Assembly (NCBI RefSeq): GCF_001648895.1
Contig: NZ_LXUF01000001.1
Location: 1,099,726 to 1,163,725, forward strand
Source: Methylovorus sp. MM2
GTDB lineage: Bacteria; Pseudomonadota; Gammaproteobacteria; Burkholderiales; Methylophilaceae
Reading direction: 5' to 3'
Length of the DNA stretch: 64,000 nucleotides
Shown: piece after piece, positions 676 to 14,447 of the stretch
Position numbering within the stretch: position 1 is the stretch's first letter
How the letters are laid out: every line of letters begins with the position of its first letter
Translations under genes and position numbers: made by a program
The notes under the pieces: model-generated
Databases searched by the model: none
Told to the model about the DNA's origin: nothing
The model's input: the letters and a program-made list of their open reading frames with translations, nothing else

Positions 676-3600
676 ATGGTGCATAAGTCGAAATTAAAGC
701 GAATTTCGCTAGCGGTATGTTTTGCATTAATGCCATTTGCTGTTGAAGCAGCTGGTCTTGGGAAGCTCACAGTGATCTCTGGTCTCGGTGAACCTTTAAA
801 TGCAGAAATAGAATTGCTGGCAACGGGTCCTGAAGAGTTATCAAGCCTAAGTGCTGCTATTGCACCTGATGAAGCCTATGCAGTTCAAGGCATCGAACGT
901 ACAGCATTGCAAAAGGCGATCAAGCTAGAAGTCAAAAAGAAACCTGATGGTACGGCACTGCTCAAGCTGAGCTCCAGCCAGCCAATCACTGATCCATTCC
1001 TAGATATGTTGATTCAGGTTGATTGGTCTACAGGTCGCCTACTTCGCGAATACACCTTGTTATTAGATCCGCCAGGATACGCACAGGCGCCTACAACTTC
1101 GCCTATTGCTAATCCTACTAGTATCTCTAGTCAGCCGCTTGCTGCACCAGCCGCCCCTGCGATGGTGGATGAAAAAAAGTCTAATGGCGTTACTGCTCCT
1201 AGCAAGAAATCAAAAGCACCTCTTGCCCCTGTTGCTGCAAAACCTGAAGCAACCGAAAATGAAACCCACACCACTGTAAAAGGCGATACTTTAATCGCCC
1301 TTGCGAGAGAAGCGCAGCCCGAGGGCGTAAGTCTTGAGCAAGTATTGGCTGGTCTATATCAAGCCAATAAGGGCGCCTTCGTTGATGGCAACATGAATCG
1401 CCTTAAAGTCGGTCAGATTATTAAGGTGCCGAGCGCTGAGCAATTGGGCGCAGTGCCAAAAGCTGAGGCAGCCAAGCAAGTCCGTGTGCATTCTGCTGAT
1501 TGGAATGCGTACCGTAATAAATTAGCAGGGGCTGTTGCTGAAGCGCCTGCTGCGCGTGAAGATGCTGGCAATAAAGCAGCAAGTAGCGGAAAAATCACTA
1601 CAGCCGCTGAAGATAAAGCTGCACCAGCGCCTGCAGGTCCGCGAGATGTCGTGAAGTTATCGAAAAACGACTCAGCAGCAACAAAAAACCTTCAGGACAA
1701 ACTGAATAACCTGCAAGAAGAAGCCATTGCACGTGAGAAAAGTGTAAAAGAGGCGAATGAGCGTACCGCCGCACTTGAAAAACAAGTGGCGGATATGCAA
1801 AAGTTATTAGCGATCAAGAATCAGGCAATGGCTGAGTTGCAAAAAAATGCGGCAACACCACCGGCACCAGAAGTGAAAGCACCTCCAGTTGCACCTGTAG
1901 AGCCACCTAAGCAGGTCGCGCCTGAGCCTGCCAAGCCTGAGGTAACTATAGCGCCAGAAGTACCTCCGGCACCAGCGGAATCTGCTGCGCCAGAAACACC
2001 AAAAACACCAGAACCAGCAAAGCCTGAGCAGGAAAAGAAAGTACCTGCGAAAAAAGTTGTGGTGCCAGAGCCGGTTGTTTCTGAGCCAAGCCTGTTGGAT
2101 GATATCGATCCAGTCGTCGTTGGTGGCGGTTTGGGCGCCTTACTCCTGCTGGCTGGTGGGTGGTTCTTCCTCCGTAACAAACGCAGGCGCAGTCTGGATG
2201 GGTTTGAAAAAGATATCCTGACTTCCGGCGGTCTTAAAGCGAATACTGTATTCGGTAATACGCTAGGCGGCGGCGTGGATGGGGGCGATACTTCATTCCT
2301 AGCTGACTTCTCGCAAAGCAGCGGCATGATTGATACACATGATGTCGATCCTATTGCTGAGGCAGAAGTCTATATGGCTTACGGACGCGATGCGCAAGCT
2401 GAAGAAATATTAAAAGACGCAATCACTAAAGATCCGCAACGTTATGAGTTGCATCTCAAATTGCTTGAAATGTATGCAGCGCGTAAAGATTCCTCTGCAT
2501 TTGAGGCGGTTGCCGGCGAATTATATTCAACCTTAGGCTCTGCTGACCCAACATGGGCGAAAGTTGCGGTACTTGGGCGTCAGATTGAGCCAAACAATCC
2601 ACTATATCAAGTCGACGAAAGTGCTATTGATGCAAGTCCTTTTGCCAGCGATTTAGATGCTAGTGATTTTGGTGCTGCCGAAAAACTTGATGTAGATGAG
2701 CTTGCTGTAGAACAATCCGTACCAGAAGATATCGGCGCGATTGAAGACATTACTGCAGAAGAGCCTTTAGAGACAAGTCTGGACTTCTCGCTGGGTGATG
2801 ACACTGAAGCGACTTCAACTACTGCCTCACCAGAAGAGGAATCACTTGATTTCGACATTGGCGGTGCGTTAGCAACAGAAGGCGCTACTGAACCTGAAGG
2901 CCTGATAGACCTCGGTGCAACCGAATCTAAGGACGAAGCGGCAGAATTGGACTTCCAACTTGATTTTCCATCAGATACGCCAGCATCACTCCCTGAAGAG
3001 GCAACAGAAGACACGATACAGCTTGATTTATCAGACTTTTCTACCCCAACCAGTGAGTCTGTAGCGTTACCTGACCTTGCAGTAACGGAACCAAAAGAAG
3101 CGGCTGCTGAATTTGACGAAATAGCGAGTTTTGATGTGGAGGCGTTGCCGGAGCTTTCTACAGAAAACCCTGCTACAGAAAAACCTGAAGAAGAAATCAG
3201 CTTCGATTTTCCTGAAATGCAGGTATCTGAATTGGAGATACCTGAAGTTGATGCACCAAAAGCTTCAGAGTCTCCTAAAGTTTCTGAGCCGATCGTAGCG
3301 CCTATCATTGCAGATGAGACGATAGAGCTTTCATTGCCTGAGTTTGATAAGACAACAATCATGCATGCTAGTACAGATAATGAAATCGTTTTTGAATCTA
3401 ACCCAGCTGATTCAGCCGCATTTGATCTAGACCTAGATGTCGACTTTGGTAGCTTGGAGGCTGAAACAAAAGAGCCTGCTGTGACTCAAGATGTTGTGGC
3501 TGAAGATAATAGTTTGCCGGAAATCGATCTATCAGGCATTACGCTGGATCTTGACCCTGCGACATCAGAAGAAGTAGATTCTGTAAGTTCAGAATCCTCC

Positions 3601-10891: not shown

Positions 10892-12433
10892 ATGTGTGGA
10901 ATCATCGGCATCGTTGGCAAGAACCCGGTCAATCAATTCCTCTACGATGGATTGCTTGTACTTCAGCATCGTGGACAAGATGCCGCAGGTATCGTCACCT
11001 GTGACGGGGGGACGTTCTTCATGCACAAGAATAACGGTTTGGTGCAGGATGTCTTCCAAACACGTCATATGCGTAGCCTGCAAGGCAATGCCGGTATCGC
11101 ACATGTTCGCTATCCGACAGCTGGCTCATCTTCTGCCGCTGAAGCGCAACCGTTTTACGTAAATTCCCCATTTGGTATCGTGCTTGGTCATAACGGTAAC
11201 TTGACCAATTCAGCACAATTAAAACAAGAGATGTTCCGTCAGGATCTGCGTCATATCAATACTAGCTCTGACTCTGAAGTGCTGTTGAATGTGCTGGCGC
11301 ATGAGATCGAACAAACAGCGCATAGCGCAGTGCTTGATACCGATATGATCTTTGAGGCCGTTGCTGGCGTGCACAATCGCTGTAAAGGCGCATATGCCGT
11401 AGTGGCAATGGTCGCTAATTTCGGTTTGCTGGCTTTCCGTGATCCTAACGGTATTCGCCCTTTAGTCATTGGTAAACATGAAACAGAAAAAGGCACTGAG
11501 TACATTGTGGCCTCAGAGAGTGTGGCGCTTGATGTGCTTGGGTTTAAACTGATTCGCGACGTAGAGCCTGGCGAAGCCATTTTTATCGATATGGATGGTA
11601 ATTTCTTCTCCCGGCAATGTGCTGAGAATGCCAAGCTTTCATCCTGTATCTTTGAATATGTTTATCTTGCGCGCCCAGACTCAGTAATCGATGGCGTTTC
11701 TGTTTATCAGACGCGTCTGCATATGGGTGAGAGTCTCGCCAAGAAAATTGCTGAAGAATGGTCACATCTAAAAATCGATGTGGTCATCCCGATCCCTGAT
11801 ACAAGCCGCCCGAGCGCGCTGGAGTTGGCGAATAAGCTTAACCTGACTTATCGTGAAGGTTTCATCAAGAATCGTTATATTGGTCGCACTTTTATTATGC
11901 CTGGCCAAGCATTACGTAAGAAATCTGTACGTCAAAAACTGAATCCAATCGGGATGGAGTTCAAGGGTAAAAATGTATTGCTCGTTGATGACTCCATTGT
12001 CCGCGGTACTACATCCAAGCAGATCGTTCAAATGGCGCGCGATGCGGGCGCCAATAAAGTATTCTTTGCCTCAGCTGCGCCGCCTGTCAGGTTCCCTAAT
12101 GTTTACGGTATCGATATGCCGACACGCGATGAGTTGCTTGCAACTGGACGTACGGATGAAGAAATCTGTGCCGAAATTGGTGCTGATGCATTGATCTATC
12201 AGGATCTTGATGCATTAGTACATGCTGTCCAGCTAAGTAATCCTAATATCAAGTCGTTTGATTGTTCCTGTTTCGATGGGCACTACGTGACAGGAGATAT
12301 CGATGAGATTTATTTGAATAATATCGAGTCTTCACGCGGTGATAAAGCAGGGTTGAAGAAACCAATTAATTCCAGCACACAACTGGATCTTAACCTAGTG
12401 ACGATCAAGGAACATGAAGAGGAGGCTGCTTAG
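10892..12433 (+). CDS. purF: Amidophosphoribosyltransferase
   Basis: PurF makes phosphoribosylamine from PRPP and glutamine, the first step of purine synthesis. The Ntn glutaminase nucleophile Cys2 stands in MCGIIGIVG. The phosphoribosyltransferase PRPP loop [13 protein letters not shown] lies near residues 362-374, and the length of 513 is normal. The stop is followed by the metZ promoter and riboswitch, so purF closes the accD-to-purF transcript. Confidence 0.97.
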
Positions 12434-12451: not shown

Positions 12452-12480
12452 TTGACCAAATGGTTTTGCAGGACTAACAT
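12452..12480 (+). promoter_or_regulatory. Sigma-70 promoter for metZ
   Basis: TTGACC (12452-12457), a 17-base spacer and TAACAT (12475-12480) make a good sigma-70 promoter directly after purF. Transcription would begin near 12486-12488, exactly at the first stem of the riboswitch that follows. That coincidence strengthens both calls. Confidence 0.75.
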
Positions 12481-12486
12481 TTGATT

Positions 12487-12551
12487 GCGCCGATTTGAGA
12501 TTATTTAGGTAACTCAGCTTGCGGGCGCTTAATAAATTCAGCTAAAGCGAG
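12487..12551 (+). promoter_or_regulatory. SAM-II-type riboswitch controlling metZ
   Basis: The leader matches the SAM-II (SAM-alpha) aptamer layout. P1 is GCGCC (12487-12491) with GGCGC (12524-12528). The loop begins GATTTGAG, close to the conserved GATTTAA. After P1 come AATAAAT and AGCTAAA (12540-12546), the hallmark 3' elements. A pseudoknot stem can form between CTC-A-GCTT (12513-12520, one bulged A) and AAGCGAG (12545-12551), seven base pairs. The next gene is metZ, a classic SAM-II target. Known examples are mostly alphaproteobacterial. No covariance search was run; the match is by eye. Confidence 0.82.
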
Positions 12552-12556
12552 TAATT

Positions 12557-12591
12557 AAACCCGTTTTAGCTTAGCTAACGCGGGTTTTTTT
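12557..12591 (+). terminator. Attenuator terminator of the metZ leader
   Basis: AAACCCG and inner TTAGC pair with GCTAA and CGGGTTT (one mismatch and one wobble between the two blocks), closing a 3-nt loop and followed by T's. Its 5' arm TTTTAGCT (12564-12571) is complementary to the aptamer element AGCTAAAG (12540-12547). The aptamer pseudoknot and an antiterminator therefore exclude each other: SAM bound would favour termination. It would also stop read-through from purF. Confidence 0.85.
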
Positions 12592-12625
12592 ATGCCCATT
12601 TTGTAGGGAAGATTGGAATTATATT

Positions 12626-13792
12626 ATGACGAATGAGTGGCAGGCAGAAACGCTGGCAGTACGTGCCGGCAGTGAGCATACGGCTTTTGGAGAGAACTCC
12701 GAGGCGATGTTTTTGACATCCAGCTTTGTATTCGAGAACGCAGCGCAGGCGGCGGCCCGTTTTGGCGGACAAGAGCCGGGCAATATCTATTCTCGCTTCA
12801 CGAATCCAACTGTGACCATGTTCCAGAATAAGCTGGCGGCGCTAGAGGGTGCTGAGTCTTGCGTCGCGACTTCTTCTGGTATGGCTGCCATTCTTGCCGC
12901 AGTGATGGGTGTGTGCTCTGCGGGCGATCACGTTGTTGCCTCACGTAGTATCTTTGGCACTTCTGTGCAGCTCTTCGGCAATATCCTTAAACGTTGGGGC
13001 TTGGAGACCACGTTTGTCTCATTGACTGATCCTGATGAGTGGAAAGCGGCGATTCAGCCGAATACCAAACTATTTTTTGTCGAAACACCGTCTAACCCGC
13101 TGACTGAGGTTTGCGATATTCCAGCACTTGCGACGATTGCACATGAGGCAGGCGTATTGCTGGCGGTTGATAATTGCTTCTGCACACCAGCGTTGCAAAA
13201 GCCTTTAGCACTCGGGGCTGATATCGTGATTCATTCTGCGACTAAATACATTGACGGCCAAGGACGTTGTCTTGGTGGTGCTGTATTGGGTAAAAAAGAC
13301 GTGTTGGAACCTGTCTATGGTTTCTTGCGTACAGCAGGCCCAACCATGAGCGCATTCAATGCATGGGTTTTCCTGAAAGGGCTTGAGACTTTACATGTGC
13401 GTATGGAAGCGCATGCGCGTAATGCCTTGGAACTTGCGCAGTGGCTCGAAGCGCAATCAGGGGTTGCCCGCGTTTATTACCCTGGTTTGCCATCACATCC
13501 ACAGCATCAACTAGCGATGAAGCAGCAAAAATATGGTGGAGCTATCGTTTCATTTGATGTCAAAGGCGGCCAAGAGGCTGCATGGCGCTTGATTGATGCA
13601 ACCAAGCTGATTTCGATCACAGCGAATCTTGGGGATGCTAAAAGTACGATCACGCACCCTGCGACAACAACACATAGCCGTGTAACACCCGAGGCACGTG
13701 TGGCATCAGGAATTGGAGATGGTTTAGTCCGCATTGCTGTCGGTTTGGAGCACGTGGATGACTTGAAGGCTGATTTAGCTTTGCTGCGTTAA
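12626..13792 (+). CDS. metZ: O-succinylhomoserine sulfhydrylase
   Basis: MetZ makes homocysteine from O-succinylhomoserine and sulfide, the direct sulfhydrylation route to methionine. It is a PLP enzyme of the Cys/Met metabolism family; the PLP lysine is Lys207 in SATKYIDGQGRCLGG. TSSFVFENA near the start, NIYSRFTNPTV and THPATTTHSR near the end are typical of MetZ rather than cystathionine gamma-synthase. Its 388 residues are normal. It has its own promoter, SAM-II-type riboswitch and attenuator. The sulfide it needs can come from the cys genes at 27-37 kb. Confidence 0.93.
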   Translation: MTNEWQAETLAVRAGSEHTAFGENSEAMFLTSSFVFENAAQAAARFGGQEPGNIYSRFTNPTVTMFQNKLAALEGAESCVATSSGMAAILAAVMGVCSAGDHVVASRSIFGTSVQLFGNILKRWGLETTFVSLTDPDEWKAAIQPNTKLFFVETPSNPLTEVCDIPALATIAHEAGVLLAVDNCFCTPALQKPLALGADIVIHSATKYIDGQGRCLGGAVLGKKDVLEPVYGFLRTAGPTMSAFNAWVFLKGLETLHVRMEAHARNALELAQWLEAQSGVARVYYPGLPSHPQHQLAMKQQKYGGAIVSFDVKGGQEAAWRLIDATKLISITANLGDAKSTITHPATTTHSRVTPEARVASGIGDGLVRIAVGLEHVDDLKADLALLR

Positions 13793-14225: not shown

Positions 14226-14447
14226 ATGAAGACATCTGTGATTGTTGGAGTATTACTGATTGCCCTTGGTGCAGCAGGCTTTGTATATAAAAGCTTTAGC
14301 TATAAATCTGAAGAGACTGTTGCGCAAATCGGCCCATTAAAAGCTACGGCAGAAACTGAAAAGAATATCGCTATTCCTGACGTGTTATCGATTATTTCTA
14401 TCATCGCGGGCGTGCTGGTTATCGCTATCGGCAGTAGAAGTAAATAA
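14226..14447 (+). CDS. Small two-helix membrane protein (DUF3185-like)
   Basis: The 73-residue product has two hydrophobic helices (about 4-22 and 52-69) joined by a polar, Glu/Lys-rich loop (YKSEETVAQIGPLKATAETEK). The arrangement resembles DUF3185 proteins, whose role is unknown; this is an impression, not a search result. A strong GGAGGAG-like site precedes the ATG. It follows the coiled-coil gene and ends before a bidirectional terminator shared with the peroxiredoxin gene. Confidence 0.75.
   Translation: MKTSVIVGVLLIALGAAGFVYKSFSYKSEETVAQIGPLKATAETEKNIAIPDVLSIISIIAGVLVIAIGSRSK

Follow-up and report, generated by a model that had tools for sequence, protein, structure and literature searches.

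A very probable SAM-II-class riboswitch with a conserved attenuator and an enlarged loop upstream of metZ in Methylophilaceae

The leader of metZ in Methylovorus sp. MM2 very probably contains a riboswitch of the SAM-II class, in a long-loop form specific to its family and combined with a conserved attenuator, as judged from comparisons of a 64,000-nucleotide stretch of DNA (the window) with sequences of relatives. We consider it highly likely that the element switches metZ off by transcription attenuation, and we infer that SAM is the ligand, given the letters of the pocket and the methionine-related genes downstream, with SAM presumably acting in the OFF direction. The element is very probably already in print, as "metXZ" (2014), as the small RNA Bp2_Cand287 (2012) and as a case from Bordetella in the paper that first described SAM-II. 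The mechanism is ordinary, and the value of the analysis lies in uniting separately named entries and in suggesting a reason why Rfam misses the element. The locus is also a clear example of ligand-holding nucleotides that would double as an antiterminator strand.

The order of the locus from 5' to 3' is purF, promoter, aptamer, terminator and metZ (Table 1). The upstream ORF is, judging by its sequence, presumably purF, and the metZ product is matched by two NCBIfam models (NF006003 at 715 bits, cut-off 522, and TIGR01325 at 600 bits, cut-off 510). The element thus stands upstream of a methionine gene, whose start codon lies 73 nt past the aptamer, behind a hairpin. The promoter, which resembles sigma-70 sites, scores 9 of 12 matches where shuffled sequences average 0.4 sites that good, and TTGA[CT] recurs 30 to 38 nt upstream of the aptamer in 51 of 52 Methylophilaceae leaders. 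Transcription is predicted to start at P1 or directly before it. A preliminary description of the stretch had given the promoter, P1 and several hallmark strings with their coordinates, and all are present as described, the letters of the window reading GATTTGAG at 12492-12499, AATAAAT at 12531-12537, AGCTAAAG at 12540-12547 and TTTTAGCT at 12564-12571.

Table 1. Features of the purF-metZ region in window coordinates (A1, alignment of Methylophilaceae leaders; A3, alignment of 46 sequences from outside the family; R2, covariance model built from A3)
Feature	Positions	Strand	Basis or remark
purF (amidophosphoribosyltransferase; presumed)	10892..12433	+	513-aa ORF; upstream neighbour, outside the switch
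Sigma-70-like promoter TTGACC-17-TAACAT	12452..12480	+	TTGACC 12452-12457, 17-nt spacer, TAACAT 12475-12480
Complete SAM-II-type aptamer	12486..12553	+	model R2: 52.7 bits, E 1.2e-12 in 64 kb
P1 5' strand GCGCC	12487..12491	+	letters, family and mixed alignments
GATTT, SAM-II G8-U12, 5' part of loop L1	12492..12496	+	invariant in A1 and A3
Family-specific L1 extension GAG...CTC	12497..12515	+	
P2 pseudoknot 5' strand CTC(A)GCTTGC, including U20 U21 G22 C23	12513..12522	+	
P1 3' strand GGCGC	12524..12528	+	letters, family and mixed alignments
L3, 11 nt, TTAATAAATTC	12529..12539	+	columns gap-free in A1 and A3
P2 3' strand and pocket GCTAAAGCGAG (G42-A47 plus tail)	12541..12551	+	
Intrinsic terminator (hairpin 12557-12587, T-run 12585-12591)	12557..12591	+	folding, family comparison
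CGTTTTAGC, terminator 5' arm and putative antiterminator 3' strand	12562..12570	+	complementary to 12541-12549
metZ, O-succinylhomoserine sulfhydrylase, regulated gene	12626..13792	+	NCBIfam matches

Within 12486-12553 the hallmarks of SAM-II stand in order: P1, GATTT, TTGC, an 11-nt L3 and GCTAAA. In aptamer numbering (window position = 12485 + n), P2 can form the pairs C28-G66, U29-A65, C30-G64, G32-C63, C33-G62, U34-A60, U35-A59, G36-C57 and C37-G56 with A31 bulged, and U58 and A61 would be left unpaired for the ligand. The pseudoknot with a bulged A that had been drawn between 12513-12520 and 12545-12551 is thus possible, although its pairs are shifted a little relative to the drawing. Published pocket numbers were placed on these letters from what we take to be the sequence of the crystallised SAM-II RNA. 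The positions reported as fully conserved in SAM-II are U10-U12, U20, U21, G22, C23, G42, C43, U44 and A45-A47, with base triples G8-G42-C23, U11-A45-U21 and U12-A46-U20 (PMC3764141). Through its GATTT, TTGC and GCTAAA, the window carries every pocket position published as invariant, and L3 is gap-free relative to classical SAM-II, both for the relatives in A3 and for the window when aligned to R2. GCTAAA is present in 51 of 52 Methylophilaceae leaders. In the exception (L030:1276-1354) it is replaced by GCAAAA, which places an A at U44, the nucleotide that pairs with the adenine of SAM; the spacer before the terminator is also longer in this leader. The nested fold of the aptamer (12486-12560) was no better than that of shuffled sequences (z = -0.89).

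A search with the Rfam model of SAM-II, which the preliminary description had proposed as a check, gave a divided answer: the window itself falls below threshold, and relatives bridge the gap. Run on the window at gathering cut-offs and at E <= 10, SAM_alpha (RF00521) reached 12.8 bits against a cut-off of 36, which is not significant, and over the organism's own genome the metZ site was just fifth among 12 sub-threshold matches. Rfam probably misses the element because of its longer L1, and the SAM_alpha cut-off is a database threshold, not a biological feature. Four of 18 scanned relatives exceed this cut-off and are also matched by R1, a model built from 38 Methylophilaceae leaders (A1, 38 of the 52 found, close relatives omitted) with P1 as its sole structure. 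They are L141 (metZ, same order; SAM_alpha 44.3 bits, R1 69.0 bits), L109 (metK, same class; 39.2 and 45.2 bits), L133 (metK, same order; 37.4 and 70.2 bits) and L102 (metX, same order; 36.2 and 40.6 bits).

The models find one another's loci reciprocally. Among 30 classical SAM-II loci (same phylum, other class, above the SAM_alpha cut-off; presumably alphaproteobacteria), R1 detects 29 with E <= 1, of which 28 also have E <= 0.01, in the position matched by Rfam; the classical locus L096 is missed. R2 contains no Methylophilaceae sequence; its members were gathered in part through Rfam's model and in part through R1, which keeps it from being a fully blind or independent test. Over the whole genome it places the window site first (E = 4.4e-11; runner-up, E = 0.13). 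One sequence fetched among the Rfam matches, L111, was by eye unlike the element and was omitted. Run on 41 of 56 leaders besides the window, R2 finds all 37 family loci in which a motif search had located the element, plus L068, with ten weak extra matches. A further R2 match in the window, at 14288-14336 on the minus strand (E = 0.0019), was rejected as a second switch: it has two broken P1 pairs, lies opposite a small ORF (by eye) and is at the noise level of R2, as expected of a chance match.

Other Rfam families did not account for the site. SAM-V, with which SAM-II has been grouped (PMC7367207), is without the final 3' pairing element of SAM-II (PMC2704228); a 3' pairing element is present here, and no SAM-V match was found at the site up to E = 10. 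The long-loop SAM-II family (RF01726) resembles our element in having longer loops, but it is described from another lineage, Bacteroidetes and marine samples (Weinberg 2010, PMC2864571), and gave no match at the site up to E = 10 in the window or in the organism's own genome. Sub-threshold matches to trpB, Trp_leader, His_leader, anti-hemB, L10_leader and Leu_leader were judged to reflect a generic terminator. The SAM-II type named in the preliminary description is thus borne out by the reciprocal models, the bridging relatives, the pocket letters and the comparative evidence below, and the element is, on these sequence grounds, very probably a SAM-II-class riboswitch.

Tests of the helices across A3 add to this. 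P1 is paired in all 46 sequences, with both sides changed at three of its five pairs, and the P1 strands of the window align to the same R2 model positions. P1 and P2 together show 33 double-change cells (shuffles, 9.6) and score 0.189 for covariation (shuffles, 0.085), values reached by none of 500 shuffles in either case; two cruder ones among the five measures were not above shuffles, with 68 of 500 as high for double-change pairs and 221 of 500 for further pair types. P2 cells are paired in 98.2% of cases in the family alignment and 86.1% in the mixed alignment, the lower value arising because alphaproteobacteria and some others use another register; one P2b pair is not formed as drawn in 19 of the 46 A3 sequences. 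In partner-swap tests, which ignore relatedness and in which 69 of 70 loci were parsed (L245b was dropped), the loci's own P2b pairing beat 1,000 of 1,000 swaps (67 distinct pairs) and their own P1 pairing 998 of 1,000 (8 distinct pairs). When swaps were confined to beta- and gammaproteobacteria, 17 of 1,000 reached the own value for P2b and 16 of 1,000 for P1, and among ten alphaproteobacteria alone 71 of 1,000 did so for P2b. Motif counts from these parsed loci are no evidence, since the parser itself demanded GCTAAA or GCAAAA and TTG[CT]. The alignment of family leaders that had been proposed as a further check showed the stems and the terminator to be kept; the compensating changes in P1 and P2 that it was to reveal are scarce, as both helices hardly vary inside Methylophilaceae and covariation there is weak, too little to decide.

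It is quite improbable, in our view, that the element is a SAM-II relative that has kept the fold and binds another or an additional ligand, such as SAH, with metXZ forming a class of its own. Leyn (2014) did treat metXZ as new, with no ligand named in the portions of that study considered here (PMC4239095), and the leader with GCAAAA has lost the U44 contact. However, the window and nearly all relatives retain the SAM-contacting nucleotides, among them the two U residues beside the sulfonium, 4 of 18 scanned relatives lie above the SAM_alpha threshold, and the genes downstream serve methionine and SAM synthesis.

The SAM-II-class aptamer is followed by a terminator whose 5' arm matches the pocket. 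GCTAAAGCG (12541-12549), made up of the pocket strand and the start of the P2 tail, complements the arm at 12562-12570 over nine pairs, G-U allowed. The terminator stretch folds with z = -2.77 relative to shuffles; a simple terminator scan of the window detected none, probably because the stem has internal mismatches. A terminator with a T-run is found in 49 of 52 family leaders, and the pocket strand pairs with the terminator arm at 9 of 9 positions in 44 of these 49, at 8 in four and at 7 in one. Because a 9-of-9 pairing arises in 115 of 5,000 dinucleotide shuffles of 12551-12592, the pairing in the window alone is attainable by chance, and its conservation is the convincing part. Among the same 49 leaders, the 9-mer of the 5' arm occurs in only 8 forms (36 leaders identical), as opposed to 32 forms of the 3' arm opposite it, the commonest found 4 times, which argues that the 5' arm is constrained beyond the terminator stem.

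The wider set of loci points the same way. When tails and arms were swapped between loci, the own pairing beat 1,000 of 1,000 combinations (61 distinct pairs), likewise within the 52 beta- and gammaproteobacterial loci, and within nine alphaproteobacteria 11 of 1,000 swaps reached the own value. The complement TTT[AG]G[CT] lies downstream in at least 23 of 52 beta- and gammaproteobacterial loci (shuffle expectation, 0.8) and at least 2 of 9 alphaproteobacterial loci, these counts being lower bounds as some regions ended at an early T-run. For example, the metK leaders L108 and L109 have the tail GCTAAACAG and, downstream, CTGTTTAGC, so that tail and arm have changed together. In folding calculations, whose energies leave the pseudoknot aside, the antiterminator is the minimum fold for transcripts to 12572 and 12577 (-26.9 kcal/mol) and for those to 12582 (-27.5 kcal/mol), whereas at full length (12592) the terminator fold reaches -32.2 kcal/mol versus -27.6 kcal/mol for the antiterminator.

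The pseudoknot and antiterminator pairings compete for one strand, and a switch could operate as follows. When SAM is scarce, 12541-12549 would pair with 12562-12570 once the complement has been transcribed, and this antiterminator would block the terminator and allow transcription of metZ. When SAM is abundant, the ligand would close the H-type pseudoknot P1/P2 and sequester the same nine nucleotides; the terminator arm would be freed, the hairpin with its T-run would form, and transcription would end upstream of metZ. An attenuator with this OFF logic had been put forward in the preliminary description, and the conserved competition for the strand that pairs with the terminator arm supports it, the ligand and the direction being presumed.

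We surveyed 60 Methylophilaceae genomes, the window's own included, of which 59 have MetZ, and took 56 upstream regions after leaving out partial genes without a leader (G012, G027 and G057). The element is present in 53 of the 56 leaders, 52 identified by motif expression and L068 by covariance model; metZ lacks it in L026, L028 and L050 (genomes G025, G023 and G003). In G023 the sequence upstream of metZ also looks different by eye. Across the order, R1 matches 282 of 399 genomes at E <= 0.01, covering 127 of 159 genera and many genomes with two to four matches, in a census that used strict filters and no separate false-positive control. This breadth suggests that SAM-II is a main methionine-gene switch across the order, where Rfam's own model often falls short, with 4 of 18 loci above its cut-off; an improved covariance model would annotate such regulons automatically. 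NCBIfam searches of nine proteins encoded downstream of other loci identified metX (L105 and L247), metK (L133 and L108) and the cystathionine gamma-synthase family (L135 and L242), as well as metH in partial frames below the full-length cut-off (L128 and L238). The ninth, from L112, resembles the ATPase MetN but scores under the cut-off. The remaining downstream proteins were named by eye from their translations.

Two departures from this layout were seen. In genus g16, with compact genomes, three leaders (L065:402-455, L066:235-288 and L067:265-318) have an aptamer with a short L1 and no terminator or T-run, and the metZ ATG follows about 20 nt after the aptamer; these are probably a translational version. 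Tandem SAM-II-like elements occur at L248 (1301-1356 and 1189-1246, minus strand) and L245 (151-204 and 250-305, plus strand; upstream of a metZ-like start by eye), the first element being followed by a terminator and the second lying closer to the gene start. Tandem arrangements of SAM-II have been reported in 44 cases (PMC9481103).

These departures bear on whether the aptamer in the window might act on translation, or on transcription and translation together, with the hairpin serving mainly as the terminator of purF. The g16 leaders, the second aptamer nearer the gene in the tandem loci and the SAM-II element of Sinorhizobium meliloti metA, which acts on translation (PMC9373788), all lend this some plausibility. 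In the window, however, the start codon is distant from the aptamer and behind the hairpin, and the terminator arm complementary to the pocket is fully kept in 44 of 49 leaders; a role for the hairpin as purF terminator is hard to reconcile with a promoter that sits between purF and the hairpin. We therefore regard action on translation as very improbable here and retain transcription attenuation.

The preliminary description had also pointed to an extended L1 (GAG...CTC) unlike the short classical form, and this is confirmed in 45 of 52 family leaders. Measured between the last base of GATTT and the last base of TTGC, L1 spans 21 to 49 nt in these 45, 12 to 16 nt in the other 7 and 26 nt in the window, and nearly all long inserts start with GAG and end with CTC. 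The other sequences, those of A3, have a short L1. A scan for long L1 loops, which used an exact pattern (missing variants) and one genome per species and from which genomes nearest the window's own may be absent, returned 88 stretches, all 88 with a purF or metZ match. In the first 80 of these, the proteins are 76 to 93% identical to those of the window where the match had sufficient length (73 loci each). Thirteen of the 88 come without a Methylo- name (one is labelled "Sulfuritalea"), and their genes are equally similar. On this evidence, the extension seems to be a trait of Methylophilaceae.

Of 31 distinct inserts, 25 fold better than the mean of their own mononucleotide shuffles (mean z = -0.99), and those of L010, L018, L060 and L071 fall below z = -2.2; the L1 hairpin of the window is no better than shuffles (z = +0.35). 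We did not accept the hairpin as a conserved helix, as the evidence is mixed, clear for some longer inserts and not for others. Perhaps the enlarged loop forms a small hairpin that projects outward and makes no contact with the pocket. GAG at 12497-12499 and the tail GAG at 12549-12551 are both able to pair with CTC at 12513-12515, and if the two compete for one CTC, an L1 hairpin would oppose closure of the pseudoknot. On this basis we suggest, tentatively and as the less probable case, that the enlarged L1 works as an additional helix and sets, in Methylophilaceae, either how much SAM is needed or when the switch acts; if so, the family would possess a subclass of SAM-II that carries its own tuning hairpin.

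The preliminary description held that SAM-II is mostly alphaproteobacterial and that its usual output mode is less clear. The first statement is right about the main group, and other lineages were noted as early as 2005: Corbino (2005) placed SAM-II mainly in alphaproteobacteria with a few cases elsewhere and listed Bordetella bronchiseptica in a figure legend (PMC1273637), and a later account gives Alpha-, Beta- and Gammaproteobacteria as the groups in which it is most common (PMC2704228). The second holds less well, as terminators were already described in many SAM-II cases (PMC1273637), and of the two Sinorhizobium elements studied, metZ and metA, that of metZ has a predicted terminator (PMC9373788). 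The S. meliloti metZ element shares the same-named gene and the same predicted termination logic with ours but is of the classical alphaproteobacterial form (PMC9373788). Compared with SAM-II as defined by RF00521, our element has the same architecture of P1 and pseudoknot P2, the GATTT/TTGC/GCTAAA pocket, an equal L3 length, a promoter directly 5' of P1, a terminator 3' and methionine genes downstream. It differs in the enlarged L1, in a score below the Rfam cut-off for the window, in P1 (GCGCC/GGCGC here, GUGGU/GCCAC in the classical form) and in a P2b register with a bulged A, which by eye is possible also in L090.

Leyn (2014) reported metXZ in 35 betaproteobacteria, upstream of metZ in three Methylophilales genomes and of metX in most others, and in the portions considered here named it neither as SAM-II nor with a ligand (PMC4239095). 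As compared with the published description, place, taxa and anatomy (pseudoknot and terminator) agree with our element (PMC4239095). Two differences concern the antiterminator, which Leyn speculated to consist of GC-rich regions 3 and 4 and which here includes the pocket strand, and copy number, given there as one per genome whereas many genomes here have two to four model matches (PMC4239095). The small RNA Bp2_Cand287 ("Bp1" in the running text) was described in 2012 from the same kind of locus, adjoining purF, metZ or metX, and its authors proposed a cis-acting element of methionine metabolism (PMC3521395). In the open-licence literature searched, we found no paper equating metXZ or Bp2_287 with SAM-II. 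New here are the joining of these names, which assigns a class, and with it a likely ligand, to the metXZ element and to an Rfam "sRNA" on the opposite strand, and the L1 extension, so far encountered exclusively next to genes like those of Methylophilaceae (88 of 88 stretches).

RF02424 (Bp2_287) implies a small RNA acting in trans or as an antisense transcript, which is barely credible at this locus. Its match to the window (12511-12576, minus strand) does have the lowest E of the weak Rfam matches (0.23; second lowest, at 0.43, in another run), and the family exceeds its cut-off in 2 of the 14 genomes of the same order that were scanned. However, three of its six places (L252:1501-1673, L253:1501-1677 and L254:1501-1626, comprising both over-cut-off cases and a weaker one) lie opposite a SAM-II element, which occupies the other strand, and the promoter, pocket and terminator all fit the plus strand. 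The other three places, all weak, have no SAM-II element overlapping. RF02424 was probably modelled on the wrong strand or represents an antisense RNA, and the riboswitch may well yield, as a side effect, a short leader RNA that ends at the terminator.

Elements of the SAM-II type were also seen upstream of metK, in L108 and L109 of the same class and in L133 and L134 of the same order (L109 and L134 by eye). At L133, an SAH riboswitch (RF01057, 59.5 bits; 2965-3040) lies 3' of the metK gene that bears the SAM-II element.
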